A stretch of DNA of 64,000 nucleotides from Desulfurivibrio alkaliphilus AHT 2 (GTDB lineage Bacteria; Desulfobacterota; Desulfobulbia; Desulfobulbales; Desulfurivibrionaceae). Position numbers and translations under genes: made by a program. The notes below the pieces were generated by a model that searched no databases, was not told the DNA's origin, and worked only from the letters and a program-made list of their open reading frames with translations. Of the stretch, positions 1-7,948 are shown one piece after another. The stretch covers positions 930,001-994,000 of the forward strand of contig NC_014216.1 of assembly GCF_000092205.1 (NCBI RefSeq), read 5' to 3'. How positions within the stretch are numbered: the stretch's first letter is position 1; each line of letters opens with the position of its first letter.

Positions 1-209
1 GCACCGTCATGGGCCCGGAAAAACTCGCGGGTGGCTTCCGGGCGTAACTCCATTTCATTTCTGACATCCGCCATGGTAATCCTGGCGCCGTCTACGGTGG
101 CCACCGTCATACCCTCATCAGCTGCGGCGACGGGGGGCTCCTTGGGGTCGCCGGAACAGGCGGATAGAAGCAAACTCAGGGTGAGCAGAGGAACAATCAA
201 CAACTTCAT
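1..209 (-). CDS. PpiC/SurA-like peptidyl-prolyl isomerase lipoprotein, N-terminal part
   Basis: Only the first 69 codons lie in the window; the gene runs off the left edge. The ATG at 209 is preceded by AAGGAG at good spacing. The product begins with a lysine and a hydrophobic stretch ending in a lipobox (LSAC), so it should be a lipoprotein. After the Cys comes a short acidic linker, then VATVDGARITMADVRNEM, which resembles the start of the N-terminal domain of PpiC/SurA/PrsA-type foldases. It follows resB by 51 bp on the same strand, so it probably belongs to the cytochrome operon and could help fold exported cytochromes. The catalytic rotamase domain is outside the window, so the family call rests on a short match. 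Confidence 0.55.
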   Translation of the reverse strand, partial: MKLLIVPLLTLSLLLSACSGDPKEPPVAAADEGMTVATVDGARITMADVRNEMELRPEATREFFRAHDG

Positions 210-260
210 GGGCGGTCTCCTTGTACTTAATGTTAAAATAACGATTGATCACGCTTGCCC

Positions 261-1709
261 TTAGGGGCGTGCGGCGGCAGGCTGTTTGGCGACGGCCGCC
301 ATCTTTTCCAGCAGGCGGAGTAAACCCGGCGGGTTATTGTTGGTGGTTCCGCAGAACGTTACTTTAACCCGGCGGGAGCCGGCGGCCTGTACCCGGACCC
401 AGACCCGGATGTGGCTGACCCAGAAAGCCACACCCAAGCCGATGCACAGCATCATAAAACCGGTGTAAACAATCCAGATCCCGGGGTCTTTTTTGACCTG
501 TAGGCCGGTATATTGCATGCCCCAAAGATCGACGAATTCCACGGTGTGCCCGTCGCGCAAACGCCAAGAATCGGGGCGGCGCTGCATCAACCACTGGCTG
601 TCGTACCATTCCCCGTCCCGGGTAAAAAAGAGCAGCAGGACCGAAGGGTTGTTCATTTGCTGGGCGTACGTGACCAGATTGCCGTCCCGGTCCATCCCGA
701 GGGCGGGTGAAAAGTCATCAATAAGGGCGACCAGGTCGGTGCCGGGGATGGCAAAGTGGTCGCCGAAGCGGAACTGTTTTTCCACCGGCTGTCCATCCAC
801 GGGGGTGATGCGAAAAATGAAAACGCTGTGCTCAATGGCGTTGGGCACCAAGCCGTAGCTTGATTGGTAAAAAGTGATTCCCCGGTGCTTGAGGGGGGTG
901 TTGACGTCGATCACCCGCGAGGTGCCGGCGCCACCCTCTTCAATTACTGTCAGAGTGCTTTCATAGGCACGGGGAATATCGGTCTGATCATAAAAACTGA
1001 CCTGAAAGTTGTCGCAACGGACGGTGAATCCCAGAGGAATTTCCTCGCCGTACCTGGTGTAGACCACATCGGTGGCGGATCCTTCCGGGATGTCGACTCC
1101 GGCCCGAAAACCAAAGAGTTCGCCCACCAGTGCCCCGGCCAGAATGATCAGGATGCTCAGGTGGATCAGGTAACTGCCCAGGCGACTGTAACCGCCCCGC
1201 TGGGCCACCAACTGATATTCCCCGGCTTCCGGCCCCGGGGTTCGGGTGGGGAAAAAACCGGCCCGGCGCATGGTCGCGGCCACCTGCTCCACTGCCTGCT
1301 CCGGAGAACCGGCCAGCAGCAGCTCTTTTTTGCGGGGATCGGTGGCAAAACGCGATGCCGGCAACGGGGACGGCGAGGTGCGAATTATTTTCAACACCCT
1401 GGGCAAGCGATCCAGGGAACAGATCAGCAAATTGAGGGCGAAGAGCAGCAGCAGGGTGATAAACCACCAACTGCGGTACATGTTGTCCATGAACCCCATG
1501 GCGTCCAAGGCCTGGTACAGGTAAGGGGCGGCCCAGGCCCCGACCAGGGAACTGAGAATTCCGATGTTGTGTTCCGGCCGACCATGGGCCGGTTCAATGA
1601 CGGTGCCGACAATGGACACCGCAGCAATTACGGCGATGAGCACTATCGCCAATTTAATCGAGGTGAAAAAACGCCAGCAGTGCTTAAAGGGGGTGTGAAG
1701 GTAGCGCAC
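261..1709 (-). CDS. resB: ResB-like cytochrome c biogenesis protein
   Basis: ResB (Ccs1) works with ResC (CcsA) in system II cytochrome c maturation, moving haem across the inner membrane and attaching it to CXXCH motifs. The 482-aa product has the family layout: TM helices near residues 16-40, 80-98 and 180-202, a large periplasmic domain, and a last TM near 420-442 followed by a basic tail. The start is GTG with GGAG nine bases upstream. It lies downstream of the 12-haem cytochrome gene, separated by a strong hairpin, which suits a dedicated maturation role. No resC is in the window; it could lie to the left or elsewhere. Confidence 0.88.
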   Translation of the reverse strand: MRYLHTPFKHCWRFFTSIKLAIVLIAVIAAVSIVGTVIEPAHGRPEHNIGILSSLVGAWAAPYLYQALDAMGFMDNMYRSWWFITLLLLFALNLLICSLDRLPRVLKIIRTSPSPLPASRFATDPRKKELLLAGSPEQAVEQVAATMRRAGFFPTRTPGPEAGEYQLVAQRGGYSRLGSYLIHLSILIILAGALVGELFGFRAGVDIPEGSATDVVYTRYGEEIPLGFTVRCDNFQVSFYDQTDIPRAYESTLTVIEEGGAGTSRVIDVNTPLKHRGITFYQSSYGLVPNAIEHSVFIFRITPVDGQPVEKQFRFGDHFAIPGTDLVALIDDFSPALGMDRDGNLVTYAQQMNNPSVLLLFFTRDGEWYDSQWLMQRRPDSWRLRDGHTVEFVDLWGMQYTGLQVKKDPGIWIVYTGFMMLCIGLGVAFWVSHIRVWVRVQAAGSRRVKVTFCGTTNNNPPGLLRLLEKMAAVAKQPAAARP

Positions 1710-1780
1710 CGTATCAGTCTCCGGCTCGATGGTTCGCTTGGTTGCGGCACCCCAAAAGGGGTGGGTTTACATGCAGAGGC

Positions 1781-1818
1781 ACCGGTAACGAGAGGGGTGA
1801 GCCCCTCCCGTTACCGGT
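1781..1818 (-). terminator. Strong hairpin between cytochrome gene and resB
   Basis: A 17-bp inverted repeat (1781-1797 with 1802-1818, one G/T wobble) with a 4-base loop lies just after the stop codon of the multihaem cytochrome gene. There is no clear T-run on the minus strand, so it may act as a partial terminator or an mRNA 3'-end stabiliser that lowers resB expression relative to the cytochrome. The structure is seen directly; the role is inferred. Confidence 0.6.
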
Positions 1819-1847
1819 GGTTGTGGTTAAGGATTCATCGGGTCCGC

Positions 1848-4800
1848 TTACAGATCGGGCTCTCCCGACAGGGCCGCGGCCATGTCGTTATAGTCCGCGT
1901 CGCTGAAAGTGTCCGCAGGCCACTTCATCATGTGAGGTGCATCACCTTCCGCCCGCTCCTTGAGCTGGGAGGCCGCCCGCCCGGGGATGTTGCTGGCGTG
2001 GGCCGAGCCGTGGCACGATGAGCAGTTCGCATTGAACAACTCGGCGCCATTTACCGGGTCCACATCACCGGGGTCACCAGGGTCACCGGGGTCACCGGGG
2101 TCACCAGGGTCACCAGGATCACTGGGGGGGGAGGCCACCGGCAGGGTATGCAGCGGCCAGGGCCCGTCAAAGGTGCCACTGTGGACGATACCGTCGGCCG
2201 AATGGCAGTTACAGTTGTAACGGCTGCCGTTTTTGACCATGGCGAAGTTGTTGGCGAAGTGGGTAGCCGGCATGATGGCTTCCGGTACGCCGATGGACTT
2301 CATGATCCACGGGTTGTGCATGTAGTGGGTCACCGGATCCTGGCCCAGCCGGACGGTGTCGGCGTGGCAGTTGAAGCAGGCCTCGAAGCCTTCGCCGTCG
2401 GGATTGCGGGCGATGCTGTGACCGGCTTTCATGTACCACGAACCATCCGCCGCGGTGGTGGGATCGCTGACCGCGCCTACTTCGCCGTACAGCCCGGACT
2501 TGGTCAGAAAGCGACCGCCGTCGGTGTTCAGGGGTTGCGGGCTGCGGTTGGGGTTGTTCACCCCTGCCGGCGAACCGGGGCAGTGCACCACCGAACCCAC
2601 CTGACCGTAGTTGTTGCGGGCCAGGAAGCGGGCGTTCTTGTTGACCGTGTTGGGGCTGTCGGGGAAGGTGAGCAGCAGGCTCAGGGTGGCCACGTCATTC
2701 CGGCCGGGGATTTCCTGCAGGATGGCGTTTTCCTCGTCGGTCAGATGGGGCTCGCCTTCCGCTTCCCGGACATTGACAATGGGTCCCAGCACCGGGGTCG
2801 GCAGGGGGTTGTCAAAGCCCAGGTCGTAGGTGGGAATGTAGGGCAGACCAGAGACCTCTTCCGCCTTTTCCAGGTGGCAGTTCCAGCACTGCTGCTGGAA
2901 CTGGGTGTGGCAGGCCTCGCACTTCACGTTCTGATGATGCATCTCGGATTCTTTGCCGGGTACCGGCATGTACTCGAGACCGCGCACCAGCCGTGCCCGT
3001 TCCTGGTACTTGGGAGTAACCAGATCCCCGTAGTCCAAACCGCCGGTGGGACCCAGCTCTTTACCCGCCTTGGTATGGCAGAGCCCGCAGGTGGTCTTGG
3101 TGGGGTTGGGGGTGATGGGCCATTCCGGCACCCTGCCGATGGGGTTGCCGCCGGGGCGGGAGGGGTTGTCCTCCGCTTCCGTACTGCCCTGGAAGGAGAG
3201 CGAATCCCGGCTGCTGTGGCCCATGGCCTGCGCGCCCTTGTGACAGTCGGTGCAGGACATGCCGGCGTTGTAATGGGCCAGGTCTTTCTTGTCGGTATTG
3301 GGGTTGGGGACAATGTTGATCCAGGTGCCGGTGTATTCGGCCCCGGTCCGGAAGTGGCAGCGCCAGCAGAAGTTGATGGACTGATCCTGGCTCTGCGGGG
3401 CCCGGACATTGCCTTCCTCGCCCTTGGTGGGCAGCACCAGCTTGTGGTTGGTGATGTCCATGCCGGCCTCGTAGATGGTGTAAGGGATCCCCCGCGCCAC
3501 GCCGGGGATATAGCCCTTGCGGTACATCAGCATCGCCGTGCCGCCCCGCCGCAGGGCACCGATCTCGTAGGCCTTGACCCGCACCGCGGCCGCCGTATGC
3601 TGCCGGTCCACATTGACCATCTCCACCCCCTGGGCGTATTTGGCAATGTTGATGGAGCTGGCGATACCGATGGGGTCGTCACCGGGGCCGGTCATATGGC
3701 AATCGGAACAACCCTGGTGGCAGGTGGAGCAACTGGCCCGGGACTGGTAGTAACCGGCGTCGACGGGCCGCCCCTTGCGATCCAGCGGCAACCGGTCCAG
3801 ATCGGTACCGGCCTGCCAGGAGCCGGCGGGGTCGTAGATGAAGTTGGACTCGGTATTAGTGCCCTCGCAGAGGACGGCGTTATAGTTGAAGGAGCCCAGA
3901 TGGCCGCGATGGGTACCCATCATGCCATGGTTAAACGCATCGGCCTGCTCGTAGTGGCATTTGCCGCAGGAGCTGCTGACATCGTTGGTGGCCTTCCAGC
4001 CCCAGGCGTAATCCGGGCCGTCGTTGGGATTGGCATTCGGTACCCAGTTGTTGGAGGGGAAGGGGTTGAAGGTATCGCCGGAACCATGGCAGGTGACGCA
4101 ACCTTCCCAGAACGGGTGGTTGACCTTCAGCGACATGGCGCTGTCCGGCAGGCTGGTGTAGCCGGGATTGACGTAGAAATTGTCCACAAACGGCACATCC
4201 TGGGCCAGGCCCGGATATTTCATGTTGTAGACCGGGTCCAGCATGGCGGAGATCAGGGCGCCCCGGCTGTGGTGACAATCTTCACAGCGCCGCTGGGGAT
4301 CCAGGGGCATGGGGATCAGGGCCCGAACCTCGCCGCCGGTAATGGAGGTAACCCCGTCCATCAGGTTACCCTGAGTATCCGAAACGATACTGCTGGTCAT
4401 ATTCAGTACGGGGTTCAGCAGGGAGCCGCTCACCGAACCCAGTATCGGGGTCAGGGTGTGGCCCACTTCCGCGGCCAGGGGGACCACCGTGCCGCCGATC
4501 AGCGGCTTGGTGATGGGGTCCAGGGTCCTGAGAGTATTGCCGGCCAAGCCGATCAGCGGCGACGTAAAGCCGCCGATGTTGGTGTTTCCCAACAGGCCAA
4601 GAGTCTCCTGGTTGAGTATGATGTTGCCGGCCTGTACCGTGCTGAAGGTCAGGTCCAGCAGGGGATCCAGCGGGGTCAGCAGGCTGCCGCCGGTGCTTTG
4701 GAGCAGCGGTTGCTGCGCGGTGTCCGCAGTACCGGTTGTCGACCCGAGCAGACTAGATTCGCTTTCATTGGCACTTGAGCCGCCCAGCAACGAGCCCAGC

Positions 4801-4904
4801 AGGCTTGCCTGGGCGCCGCCGCCCAACGGCATGATCATGGCCGCCCCCAGTAACAAGGCGCCGGCAATCAGCGGTGACGCTTTGTTTAGTTTTGCTTTTA
4901 GCAT
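1848..4904 (-). CDS. Exported 12-haem cytochrome c with Leu/Gly-rich N-terminal region and C-terminal monohaem domain
   Basis: The 1018-aa product has a signal peptide (about residues 1-34, cleavage near AQA). Residues 35-200 are low-complexity, rich in Leu, Gly, Thr and Pro, with no haem sites. Twelve canonical CXXCH motifs begin at C207, 269, 313, 392, 399, 513, 551, 606, 662, 673, 843 and 961. A thirteenth site at 898-901 reads CNCH, one residue short. A (DPG)n linker near 928-946 joins the haem body to a C-terminal class-I-like domain holding the last CXXCH. The start has AAGGAGG upstream. Likely an outer-surface electron-transfer protein; the family beyond 'multihaem cytochrome' is not recognised. 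ResB and a PPIase-like lipoprotein lie downstream; a C39 peptidase and a beta-barrel protein lie upstream. Confidence 0.9.
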   Translation of the reverse strand: MLKAKLNKASPLIAGALLLGAAMIMPLGGGAQASLLGSLLGGSSANESESSLLGSTTGTADTAQQPLLQSTGGSLLTPLDPLLDLTFSTVQAGNIILNQETLGLLGNTNIGGFTSPLIGLAGNTLRTLDPITKPLIGGTVVPLAAEVGHTLTPILGSVSGSLLNPVLNMTSSIVSDTQGNLMDGVTSITGGEVRALIPMPLDPQRRCEDCHHSRGALISAMLDPVYNMKYPGLAQDVPFVDNFYVNPGYTSLPDSAMSLKVNHPFWEGCVTCHGSGDTFNPFPSNNWVPNANPNDGPDYAWGWKATNDVSSSCGKCHYEQADAFNHGMMGTHRGHLGSFNYNAVLCEGTNTESNFIYDPAGSWQAGTDLDRLPLDRKGRPVDAGYYQSRASCSTCHQGCSDCHMTGPGDDPIGIASSINIAKYAQGVEMVNVDRQHTAAAVRVKAYEIGALRRGGTAMLMYRKGYIPGVARGIPYTIYEAGMDITNHKLVLPTKGEEGNVRAPQSQDQSINFCWRCHFRTGAEYTGTWINIVPNPNTDKKDLAHYNAGMSCTDCHKGAQAMGHSSRDSLSFQGSTEAEDNPSRPGGNPIGRVPEWPITPNPTKTTCGLCHTKAGKELGPTGGLDYGDLVTPKYQERARLVRGLEYMPVPGKESEMHHQNVKCEACHTQFQQQCWNCHLEKAEEVSGLPYIPTYDLGFDNPLPTPVLGPIVNVREAEGEPHLTDEENAILQEIPGRNDVATLSLLLTFPDSPNTVNKNARFLARNNYGQVGSVVHCPGSPAGVNNPNRSPQPLNTDGGRFLTKSGLYGEVGAVSDPTTAADGSWYMKAGHSIARNPDGEGFEACFNCHADTVRLGQDPVTHYMHNPWIMKSIGVPEAIMPATHFANNFAMVKNGSRYNCNCHSADGIVHSGTFDGPWPLHTLPVASPPSDPGDPGDPGDPGDPGDPGDVDPVNGAELFNANCSSCHGSAHASNIPGRAASQLKERAEGDAPHMMKWPADTFSDADYNDMAAALSGEPDL
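2065..2127 (-). repeat. 9-bp tandem repeat encoding Asp-Pro-Gly linker
   Basis: Seven near-identical 9-bp units (TCACCGGGG / TCACCAGGG on the plus strand) lie in frame inside the cytochrome gene and encode the (GDP)n linker before the C-terminal haem domain. Such a tract can change length by slipped-strand replication in steps of three residues without breaking the frame. Confidence 0.9.
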
Positions 4905-5273
4905 CCTCTTTCCTCCTTAAAGGTAATGGTTGTCATCCCGGGGCCGTATTTGCCCCCGGCATCGTGGTCCTCCCGGAGTTCGCTATGGTTCATTCATCAT
5001 TCTTCCTCCTTAGGCTGTAAGTGGTGAGAGAGTTTTGGTTCAACCCGTCGTGCGTACCGGACATCGCCGGCACGACCCCAGGGCTGCCGATCGTAAATGC
5101 CCGACAATACCTGTCCTGGGGTTAAACCGCCTTCTGCAGTCAGTTGTTTGAGCAATAACTGTGCCACCGGAGAGAGAAACGGGACACCAATGGAACTGCC
5201 GGTAGTTACGTTTTTTTGTCCGGAGAAACGATGGCCATACCACGGGGCGGGGCGTTTGTTTCTGGCAACTTGG
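4905..5273. other. 369-bp spacer between C39 peptidase and cytochrome genes, with possible gene remnant
   Basis: No convincing gene is seen. On the minus strand an open frame runs on from the end of the C39 gene to a stop at 4997. Its last 60 codons read like protein (for example LKQLTAEGGLTPGQ and YDRQPWGRAGDVRYA) but no ATG with a ribosome site is present; GTG/TTG starts are possible. It could be a decayed gene, or a frameshifted tail of something once longer. A GC-rich hairpin (4938-4959) lies 33 bases before the cytochrome start, and AAGGAGG motifs occur before both the cytochrome start and a 5-codon frame at about 4994. Confidence 0.5.
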
Positions 5274-6050
5274 TCACCAGTTTCTGACCAGCGGGGTGGG
5301 CGCCCCCCACGCTCTGTGATAAAGGGTTTGATAGGCGGCGGGAAAAGGGGTGAGCTGCATAAAGTCCGCCCGGTGGGCCGGGTCCGGCGGGGCATCCTGT
5401 GGGGGTAACAAAACCAGGGCGCGACCGGGCAGCTTGGGGTCCGGGCGGGTATGAAACAGTTGCTGGAAACGTTCCACCTTGAGGCGTTGATTGCCGAAGG
5501 AGGGGTCCGCCAGGTGGACAAAGCGCTGATCCAGGCCCCGGTAAACCGTGAAGTGGCCGCGCCCGCGTACTTCCAGATAGAGGATGGCCGGCCGCCGCAA
5601 TTGGGCAAGCGAGTCCAGCGACAGGGCCAACCCCGCGGCCCGGTAACCCAGCGTGGCGGCGTATTGTTGCAGGTCGCTGAACGACATCATCGGCTCCGCC
5701 TCTCGTTGCTCCTGGGCCCGTTGCTGGAGCCAGAATTCGACAACATCTTTTTCCGCCACCGTTTCCCCGTAGTAGTGGTGCAAAATGGTGGCCAGGGAAG
5801 CGGCGCCGCAGGAATAGTCATAATGCTGGCGCACCACCTGCTGATCCCGGATCTCCACCCAACTCCGGGCCGTTTTCGGGTGCTCGGGGCCGGGGTAGGT
5901 CCGACCGCCGCCGCACGCCCCGAGGCAGCACAGAGCCGGCAGCAGCAGCAGCAGCGCCGTTAACAACAGCGGCAGGCGACCTTTAAAAGGTCCTGGACAA
6001 ACGCCAGGAAATTTGTGAGCCGGCATAATTGGCACCGAAGTTAAATTCAC
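5274..6050 (-). CDS. C39-family cysteine peptidase, predicted lipoprotein (FapD-like)
   Basis: C39 peptidases cut leader peptides after double-glycine motifs; stand-alone periplasmic members occur in Fap amyloid operons (FapD). The 258-aa product has a hydrophobic segment ending in the lipobox LGAC (Cys46), then the C39 core: Gln75 and catalytic Cys81 in QHYDYSCGAASLATI, His166 in GRGHFTVYRG, and Asp182 in HLADPSFGN, so the triad is complete. There is no ABC or TM domain, unlike bacteriocin exporters. The start is uncertain: the longest frame (GTG 6050) overlaps the upstream gene by 68 bp and lacks a clear ribosome site; ATG 6026 or a later TTG also fit the signal peptide. The probable substrate is the 116-aa protein encoded two genes upstream (inference). 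Confidence 0.85.
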   Translation of the reverse strand: MNLTSVPIMPAHKFPGVCPGPFKGRLPLLLTALLLLLPALCCLGACGGGRTYPGPEHPKTARSWVEIRDQQVVRQHYDYSCGAASLATILHHYYGETVAEKDVVEFWLQQRAQEQREAEPMMSFSDLQQYAATLGYRAAGLALSLDSLAQLRRPAILYLEVRGRGHFTVYRGLDQRFVHLADPSFGNQRLKVERFQQLFHTRPDPKLPGRALVLLPPQDAPPDPAHRADFMQLTPFPAAYQTLYHRAWGAPTPLVRNW

Positions 6051-6933
6051 AGTCCAGGAAAAAACTCAGGCGGTCGCTGATGGCATAGGAAATCCCCAGC
6101 AGGGGAGAAGTGGTACTGGTGGTGGGGTTGAGCCGGCGGCCGTTTAAGCGGTCACCGCCACGCAGGGTCCACTTGAAACCGCCGCTGATGGTGATATCGG
6201 GATTGGCGATGAAAAAAAGTTGCGGGGTCAGCGACAGCAGGGAGCCGGGCTCATAATGGTAGTCACCGGCCCGCCGGGAGCGCTGGTGCTGGTAAGTGGT
6301 TTGCAGGAAGAAAATCACCGGATCAAGGGTATAATAAGTGATCAGCCCGGGGGAGATGGTGCGCAGATAATTGCTGCCCCGCTCCGACCCCAAGCGGGTT
6401 TGCTCCACGCCGTTGAGGCTGGCCGTCAACAATAATGCCGGCCACCGATCTTCGCGGCGCCACTGGTACACCGCTCCCAGGCCGGCCATATTGAAACCGC
6501 TGCGGCTGGTGCTCTCTTGCCGGCCGCCGACGTAATCCCGTTGCTGCTCCCAGAAGCCGGAGCCGAAAACCGCCAGTTCCAGTTGGTCGCTAACACCGTA
6601 ACGCAGACGCAACTCTGCGACCAGGCTGTTTTCCCTGCTCTGCCCAATGCTCAGATGTGGCCCTTGCAGGGTGACGTGCTCCGCCTGCCGGTTGTTGTTG
6701 TTGTACTGCAGGGTGCCGTCCAGTTGCCAGCGACCGGACCGGGTCAGCAGCTCCTCCACTCGGACCGGCATTCTTTCCTCGGCCTCGGTGGAGGCGGCGG
6801 GGTCGGTTGCCGCCGGTGAAGCCGGCTGGGTGGTGGTGGCGGCCTTTGCAGGGAGGGGAGCCAGGGTCAGCCAACCCAGCAGCAAGAGGCCCAAAAAAAT
6901 GGTGGGGCAATGTGGCATGGATGATCCCGGCAC
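5983..6933 (-). CDS. Predicted outer-membrane beta-barrel protein (FapF/transporter-like)
   Basis: The product of up to 316 aa starts with a signal peptide (MPHCPTIFLGLLLLGWL, cleavage near AKA) and a short Ala/Thr/Pro/Glu segment. About 250 residues follow of alternating polar/aromatic strands (for example WQLDGTLQYNNN, LVAELRLRYGVSDQLELAVF, ISWRLSRTF), ending in a C-terminal Phe as expected of outer-membrane barrels. It has no TonB box or plug. Position directly before a C39 peptidase gene matches the order of Fap amyloid operons, where FapF is the outer-membrane exporter, but it is shorter and I see no coiled-coil plug. ATG 6918 fits the signal peptide better than GTG 6933; neither has a strong ribosome site. 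Export of the 116-aa protein or of the cytochrome is a hypothesis. Confidence 0.65.
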   Translation of the reverse strand: MPGSSMPHCPTIFLGLLLLGWLTLAPLPAKAATTTQPASPAATDPAASTEAEERMPVRVEELLTRSGRWQLDGTLQYNNNNRQAEHVTLQGPHLSIGQSRENSLVAELRLRYGVSDQLELAVFGSGFWEQQRDYVGGRQESTSRSGFNMAGLGAVYQWRREDRWPALLLTASLNGVEQTRLGSERGSNYLRTISPGLITYYTLDPVIFFLQTTYQHQRSRRAGDYHYEPGSLLSLTPQLFFIANPDITISGGFKWTLRGGDRLNGRRLNPTTSTTSPLLGISYAISDRLSFFLDCEFNFGANYAGSQISWRLSRTF

Positions 6934-7013
6934 CGGTAAAAGATTTGGCAGGAGCTGGGGGCGGGTGCCGACCGGCCTCCGCCCCCAGCTGGTTCATTTT
7001 ATAAGGATACGGG

Positions 7014-7364
7014 CTACAGCAGGCCGCCGCCGAGCAGGCCGTCAACCACGGGGAGACCGCCGCCGAGCAGGCCGTCAACCACAGGGAGACCGCCGCCGAG
7101 CAGGCCGCCCAACAGGGGTTCAGCCACCCCCAGTACCGGTCCGGTCAAGCCCAGGGCAGGGCTGACCAGGGCCAACGGCAGGGTCAGCAGCGCCCCTTCG
7201 GTGGCCTCCATTTCGCCGACGGTCAAGGCGGCGACCTCGACCTTGCCGTCGAACATGGCCTGCATCTCCGTGGCCGTAATACCGTTGCCGGCCATGGCCA
7301 GTGACGGGAACGTCAATGCCACGGCGACCAGGGCGGCCAGAATTAACGATCTGTGCTTCTTCAT
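7014..7364 (-). CDS. Secreted Leu/Gly-repeat protein with double-glycine-type leader
   Basis: No named family is recognised in this 116-aa product. Residues 1-25 form a Sec signal peptide (MKKHRSLILAALVAVAL...AMA). Residues 47-58 read LTVGEMEATEGA, which fits the double-glycine leader rule (L-12, S/T-11, E-8, L/M-7, G-2, G/A-1), so a C39 peptidase could cut after Ala58. The remaining 58 residues are hydrophobic, with GLLGGGLPVVD repeated at the C-terminus. The start has an AAGGAGG ribosome site. The same Leu/Gly-rich style occurs in residues 35-160 of the cytochrome encoded downstream. It could be a fibre-forming or surface-coating peptide. The C39 peptidase two genes downstream is the obvious processing enzyme. 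Confidence 0.8.
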   Translation of the reverse strand: MKKHRSLILAALVAVALTFPSLAMAGNGITATEMQAMFDGKVEVAALTVGEMEATEGALLTLPLALVSPALGLTGPVLGVAEPLLGGLLGGGLPVVDGLLGGGLPVVDGLLGGGLL

Positions 7365-7537
7365 CCTCTTCTACCTCCTTGTTGGTTTGTTGCTTTCATA
7401 TTGTTAACACCGTTGGTCTTACCGATTTTGCTTATGAGTTTTTCCCCTCAATCACCTCCTTTTTGGTTTGAACCGACCAATTACAGTAAAGGGCGCCGAA
7501 GCCGTAGACAGTCGTTCGCTGGCTGTGGCTGTTTTTT

Positions 7538-7672
7538 CTAGCGCCCGCCTTCATGGTTAGCTTCCTGGTAAACCTGCCTGAATTCGTTGATCAGAGCTTT
7601 CCGGGCTGCCGTGTTAAGCCGGTAGTAAAAGGGCGATAGAGAAAGTATCCGAATGGATTCTTTGATAGTCAT
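7538..7672 (-). CDS. 44-aa conserved-looking small protein
   Basis: The frame starts at ATG 7672 with an excellent AAGGAGG site eight bases upstream and ends at TAG 7538. The product is basic and amphipathic: MTIKESIRILSLSPFYYRL at the start, then ARKALINEFRQVYQEA. The pattern 'ILSxSPFYYRL...LINEF' resembles small unnamed proteins of Desulfobacterota (from memory, not checked). It is the first gene after the sigma-54 promoter and therefore heads the export/cytochrome cluster. It has no signal peptide or TM helix, so it is likely cytoplasmic. Function unknown. Confidence 0.65.
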   Translation of the reverse strand: MTIKESIRILSLSPFYYRLNTAARKALINEFRQVYQEANHEGGR

Positions 7673-7752
7673 GGCTTGTCCTCCTTGCATGCTTGAACCG
7701 AAAGCGATCGCAACTGGTTGTCAGCACTGACATCCTTTGTTCTGTTCTTAAA

Positions 7753-7769
7753 AGCAAAATGCGTGCCAG
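7753..7769 (-). promoter_or_regulatory. Sigma-54 (RpoN) promoter
   Basis: Read on the minus strand, CTGGCACGCATTTTGCT matches the sigma-54 consensus YTGGCACGN4TTGCW at every fixed position, with correct spacing between the -24 GG and -12 GC. Transcription should start near 7742, giving a leader of about 70 bases before the 44-aa gene. The nearest upstream gene on the same strand ends at 9123's neighbour 7949, so the promoter sits at a natural operon boundary. No activator gene or clear enhancer site was found in the 180 bases upstream. Confidence 0.75.
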
Positions 7770-7948
7770 TTACTCAAGAAGTCGGAGAACGGGGACAATG
7801 TATTGTAGTTACGGGAAAAAATCTTGGCACGTAGCAATCAAGCGAGAGCTGGGTGGTCAGTTTCTGGTGGGTTGGGTAGTGCGTTTTAGAAAGGTTGGTG
7901 GCAACATCATGCTATTCCTAACGTGGGGCAACGATGACTGGCAGGGGC

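Follow-up and report, generated by a model that had tools for sequence, protein, structure and literature searches.

Two probable neighbouring transcription units behind sigma-54-type motifs in Desulfurivibrio alkaliphilus: a candidate FapD/FapF-type peptide exporter and an orphan 12-haem cytochrome

The window analysed here, 64,000 nucleotides in length, comprises bases 930001-994000 of the complete 3,097,763-bp genome of Desulfurivibrio alkaliphilus AHT2, and carries at its beginning seven genes, all on the - strand and in the order that an earlier note made from the letters alone had given. Read in their direction of transcription, they encode a 44-aa protein (P0006, 7538-7672), a secreted Leu/Gly peptide precursor of 116 aa (P0005, 7014-7364), an outer-membrane barrel of FapF fold (P0004, 5983-6918), a C39 peptidase lipoprotein of 250 aa (P0003, 5274-6026) whose gene overlaps that of the barrel by 44 bp, a 12-haem c-type cytochrome of 1018 aa (P0002, 1848-4904), a ResB cytochrome c biogenesis protein (P0001, 261-1709; Pfam 6.9e-91) and a PpiC-type foldase lipoprotein identified with Pfam, whose 5' part lies in the window (1-209) and which runs on to -681. 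A second PpiC gene, likewise a Pfam match, lies beyond the window edge in the orientation of the first (-1683 to -766). Downstream of the cytochrome and its accessory genes, 252 bp past the second PpiC gene and again on the same strand, there is a Tad pilus cluster (-1936 to -9422) with genes for Flp pilin, TadE, RcpC, a secretin, TadZ, a T2SSE-type ATPase and a T2SSF-type protein, beyond which a CcsA-type cytochrome assembly gene follows on that strand. Tad genes were reported to be induced in D. alkaliphilus during iron reduction (PMC12545173). A search of the first 14 kb of the window with Rfam gave no match, and searches of Pfam, NCBIfam and PHROGs revealed no significant family for P0006, the barrel P0004 or the peptide P0005.

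The peptide precursor P0005 begins with a Sec signal, which is followed by a double-glycine-type (GA) leader, LTVGEMEATEGA, at residues 47-58 (7191-7226, - strand), with cleavage predicted after GA. This leader fits the type LSxxE-M/L-xx-I/T/V-x-G-G/A, which is also seen in peptides beside related C39 genes; when the pattern was back-translated and searched in the D. alkaliphilus genome for a further substrate, its other four matches all lay inside unrelated genes. The mature part of P0005 is almost a pure Leu/Gly repeat, very hydrophobic and devoid of Asn and Gln. P0003 contains a C39 domain (Pfam 3.9e-17) as its only domain, not fused to an ABC transporter, and reading by eye assigned it as a lipoprotein by an LGAC lipobox. 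Its residues Q67, C73, H158 and D174, corresponding to the catalytic residues, were invariant in a ten-sequence alignment, and its best NCBIfam model was FapD (3.6e-27), yet at 95.1 bits against a cut-off of 330. An AlphaFold2 model of P0004, computed together with six relatives (pLDDT 79.5), showed a 12-stranded-type barrel whose first 18 PDB matches were all FapF chains (best E 4e-14); a short low-confidence linker precedes the barrel, and the N-terminal coiled coil of FapF is absent. The fold match, the best peptidase model, the catalytic residues and the leader together bear out the earlier description of a Fap-like combination of C39 peptidase, barrel and double-glycine peptide.

The cytochrome P0002 contains exactly 12 CXXCH motifs, as had been counted before, plus one CXCH at residue 898. 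PGD tripeptide repeats (2067-2125) join its multihaem part to a C-terminal mono-haem cytochrome domain. Residues 33-205 (4290-4808, - strand) form a Leu/Gly-rich stretch of about 170 residues resembling the peptide P0005, the model of this N-terminal region reaching a pLDDT of 39.8. No relative of P0002 was found in the family or the order; among 395 genomes of the phylum there were only partial haem-motif matches and no full-length relative, nor was a full-length relative detected across about 570 phylum genomes. A profile search of genome contigs, which detects close relatives only, likewise gave no match, and comparison with the PDB returned mono-haem segments only, with no similarity to OmcS-type or any other solved multihaem cytochrome. 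The N-terminal region searched by itself against the phylum gave a single marginal match (E 0.009), at a locus without related neighbours (L221). P0002 is thus an orphan cytochrome of interest, and also the sole multihaem gene in the window, the nearest others found lying more than 20 kb away. Two very haem-rich open frames, with 16 and 26 CXXCH, are located about 32 kb from P0002 in the same genome (896515-899738, L108).

The seven genes had been placed behind one sigma-54 promoter. The site concerned (TGGCACGCATTTTGCT, 7753-7768, - strand), located before the gene for the 44-aa protein, is indeed a perfect consensus match, but a second perfect match to TGGCAC-N5-TTGCW (TGGCACAGTTATTGCT, 5151-5166, - strand) precedes the cytochrome, inside the 369-bp gap that separates it from the C39 gene. 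Between this second site and the cytochrome there is also a 31-aa open reading frame with a good ribosome-binding site (4898-4993, - strand), whose stop overlaps the cytochrome start. Although a sigma-54 motif match by itself is not proof of a promoter, only 18 perfect sites were counted in the whole genome, against 4 for a reversed control pattern, and by simple proportion from the genome count a chance site in that gap and on that strand is expected at about 2 in 10,000. Because the second site occupies the gap and perfect sites are rare genome-wide, a model of two transcription units is the better one, and the single operon was set aside owing to the site at 5151-5166. Unit 1 would then consist of the genes for the 44-aa protein, the Leu/Gly peptide, the barrel and the C39 lipoprotein, and unit 2 of those for the 12-haem cytochrome, ResB and the two PpiC foldases, with the cytochrome most likely starting its own transcript, though transcription of unit 1 may continue into unit 2. 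From the motifs, the two units would be co-regulated, the same conditions probably activating both. One paper presents sigma-54, in its title, as controlling the exterior of bacteria (PMC3162934).

The reading that we favour, at a probability of about 0.68, is that of two units behind their own sigma-54-type promoters, one a FapD/FapF-type peptide exporter and the other an exported 12-haem cytochrome with its ResB and PpiC accessory proteins. P0005 would cross the inner membrane via Sec, and the periplasm-facing lipoprotein peptidase P0003 would cut it after the GA of its leader; the freed Leu/Gly peptide would leave through the barrel P0004 and then assemble or act at the cell surface. In parallel, ResB would attach haem to the exported P0002, which the two PpiC foldases would help to mature. 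Nothing marks P0002 as a cargo of the C39/barrel pair, and the products of both units may meet at the cell surface.

In a search of genome contigs with a profile built from the C39 alignment, from which the best 80 loci were taken, further copies of this arrangement were found. In a tree of 118 C39 sequences, P0003 fell into a clade of nine members, supported at 99/97, together with sequences from Hydrogenothermaceae/Aquificota, Helicobacter, Thiovulum, an unclassified bacterium and Cupriavidus necator; the clade thus spans four named phyla and one unclassified bacterium, and P0003 is its sole member from the Desulfobacterota. A barrel of the P0004 type adjoins or overlaps the C39 gene in seven of the nine members, the two genes being spaced by -44 to +12 bp, and of the remaining two loci one starts at a contig end (L115) and the other has no barrel (L112). 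Small secreted peptides whose leaders follow the pattern of P0005 were observed near the C39/barrel pair in Helicobacter cinaedi (L117:7059-7322), Cupriavidus necator (L118:11457-11888) and an unclassified marine bacterium (L113:10800-11207), and in looser form in L114. The neighbour gene lists, obtained by greedy picking of open reading frames, are rough since some spurious antisense frames were picked (e.g. 468311-469693). The clade, the paired barrels and the leader-bearing peptides nearby indicate a coherent module that spreads from phylum to phylum. Those members of the genus and of the family that were sampled carried neither the C39 gene nor the cytochrome.

As the module is present in bacteria without such cytochromes, unit 1 might export a bacteriocin-like or signalling peptide unrelated to electron transfer, the cytochrome being a chance neighbour. 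A double-glycine-type leader would suit such a product, as would the cognate peptides of Helicobacter cinaedi, Cupriavidus and others, which are short, hydrophobic and in places rich in Gly. However, no immunity gene was recognised, the mature part of P0005 is of almost pure Leu/Gly composition, and the promoter type is one shared with cytochrome genes, so that we regard this explanation as unlikely.

The sequence of P0002 itself bears on a second alternative, in which the exported Leu/Gly peptide would form a fibre or coat on which P0002 docks through its Leu/Gly N-terminus, giving a conductive or mineral-contacting surface. When mature P0005 was compared with 2009 open reading frames from all fetched loci, P0002 was the top match: it scored 64 in an ungapped alignment of 49 residues, and the next unrelated frame scored 55. 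Shuffled controls reached the score of 64 in 6-13 of 1000 cases, and the two units are adjacent with the same promoter type. Given the low complexity of the two sequences, which inflates similarity, the Leu/Gly resemblance is suggestive only as a pointer to a local link. The N-terminal model, at the low confidence given above, is uninformative, and the lack of conservation of the pair elsewhere speaks against docking. None of 120 C39 loci, comprising the phylum stretches and the best 80 loci of the contig search, a few of them seen twice (median length 16.7 kb, some cut by contig ends), had a gene with at least three CXXCH near the C39 gene. We consider a peptide-scaffolded cytochrome improbable, and equally so the extended proposal that scaffold and P0002 would both be switched on by sigma-54 together with an OmcS-like cytochrome. 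A partnership of exporter and cytochrome specific to D. alkaliphilus is possible from their adjacency, the common promoter type and the weak Leu/Gly similarity.

The same survey does not sustain the dedicated route proposed in the earlier note, in which a peptide would be exported together with, or as a scaffold for, a cytochrome: as none of the 120 C39 loci held a gene with at least three CXXCH and no full-length relative of P0002 was found in the phylum genomes, a conserved cytochrome-export system is unsupported, and the co-occurrence of C39 peptidase, barrel and multihaem cytochrome on which that proposal had been staked did not emerge as a conserved pairing. It is very improbable that the cytochrome itself is a substrate which C39 peptidase and barrel process or export, for although the genes are neighbours on one strand and both parts are probably exported, P0002 has a candidate promoter of its own, carries no leader motif and has no multihaem counterpart at the 120 loci, and the channel is of the FapF 12-stranded type, through which unfolded chains travel in the Fap system (PMC5557850), while a cytochrome receives its haems and folds before it is exported.

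For the favoured two-unit reading, the Fap system of Pseudomonas (PMC5557850) offers a close comparison in terms of parts, as it too has a periplasmic C39 peptidase that stands alone and keeps its catalytic residues, a 12-stranded barrel of FapF fold and a Sec-exported substrate. The substrate at the present locus, however, is a short peptide of Leu and Gly that carries a distinct leader, whereas that of Fap is an amyloid with Asn/Gln repeats (FapB/FapC); no FapA, FapB, FapC or FapE was recognised at the locus, P0004 is without the coiled coil of FapF, and P0003 is a lipoprotein that scores below the FapD cut-off. Which substrate the characterised FapD cuts is itself an unsettled matter in the literature (PMC5557850). 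Since the cut site of P0005 can be read in its sequence, what FapD-type peptidases cut becomes directly testable, and a Fap-like export module common to Desulfurivibrio, Helicobacter, Aquificota and Cupriavidus is outlined. The putative Fil pilus system also uses a C39 protein, FilB (NCBIfam NF050078), whose model matches P0003 at 4.4e-24, but at 85.3 bits against a cut-off of 475, and none of the other Fil genes was recognised. Bacteriocin-type processing is similar in the double-glycine-type leader and differs in that its C39 domain is fused to an ABC transporter. Porin-cytochrome (Pcc) clusters have been reported in D. alkaliphilus (PMC4245776) and likewise combine an outer-membrane barrel with a cytochrome, here of 12 haems, in one locus; here, however, the barrel is of the FapF type, no periplasmic partner cytochrome lies beside it, and P0004 and P0002 probably belong to separate transcription units.

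D. alkaliphilus, a soda-lake bacterium, can grow by coupling the oxidation of sulfide to the reduction of iron oxide, and 13 of its 46 multihaem cytochrome genes were induced in iron-oxide-reducing cells (PMC12545173). The RT-qPCR primers published for one of its cytochromes, the OmcS-like DA_402 (PMC12545173), matched exactly inside the gene at 468410-469705 (L097), upstream of which there is a perfect sigma-54 site (469872-469887). A 6-haem neighbour of DA_402 (470176-471483) also has a perfect site upstream (471608-471623), and relatives of PpiC and ResB are encoded within about 10 kb of DA_402. Unit 2 resembles this and other OmcS-type nanowire clusters (PMC12545173) in that a sigma-54 site precedes a multihaem cytochrome gene and that PpiC foldases and ResB are encoded close by. 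P0002 differs from the nanowire cytochromes in having no sequence homology to OmcS, OmcE or OmcZ, and in its 12 haems, Leu/Gly N-terminus, PGD-repeat linker and C-terminal mono-haem domain; the search with P0002 did not match DA_402. The 12-haem cytochrome, the candidate peptide exporter and DA_402 are thus all found behind the same promoter type in a sulfide-oxidizing, iron-oxide-respiring organism.

The 44-aa protein P0006, taken earlier as a component of the system, is present at the locus as described but is not specific to it, as it belongs to a tiny-protein family common across the order, where 128 of 194 genomes carry relatives, at one to three copies each. The consensus of this family is about MTxREAIKILMLSPFYFKLDLAAR, and several members adjoin an adenylate-kinase-like gene. 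In D. alkaliphilus the other family copies are located at 430113-430211 (+ strand) and 1772498-1772596 (- strand), and two of the three copies in this genome lie directly behind perfect sigma-54 sites.
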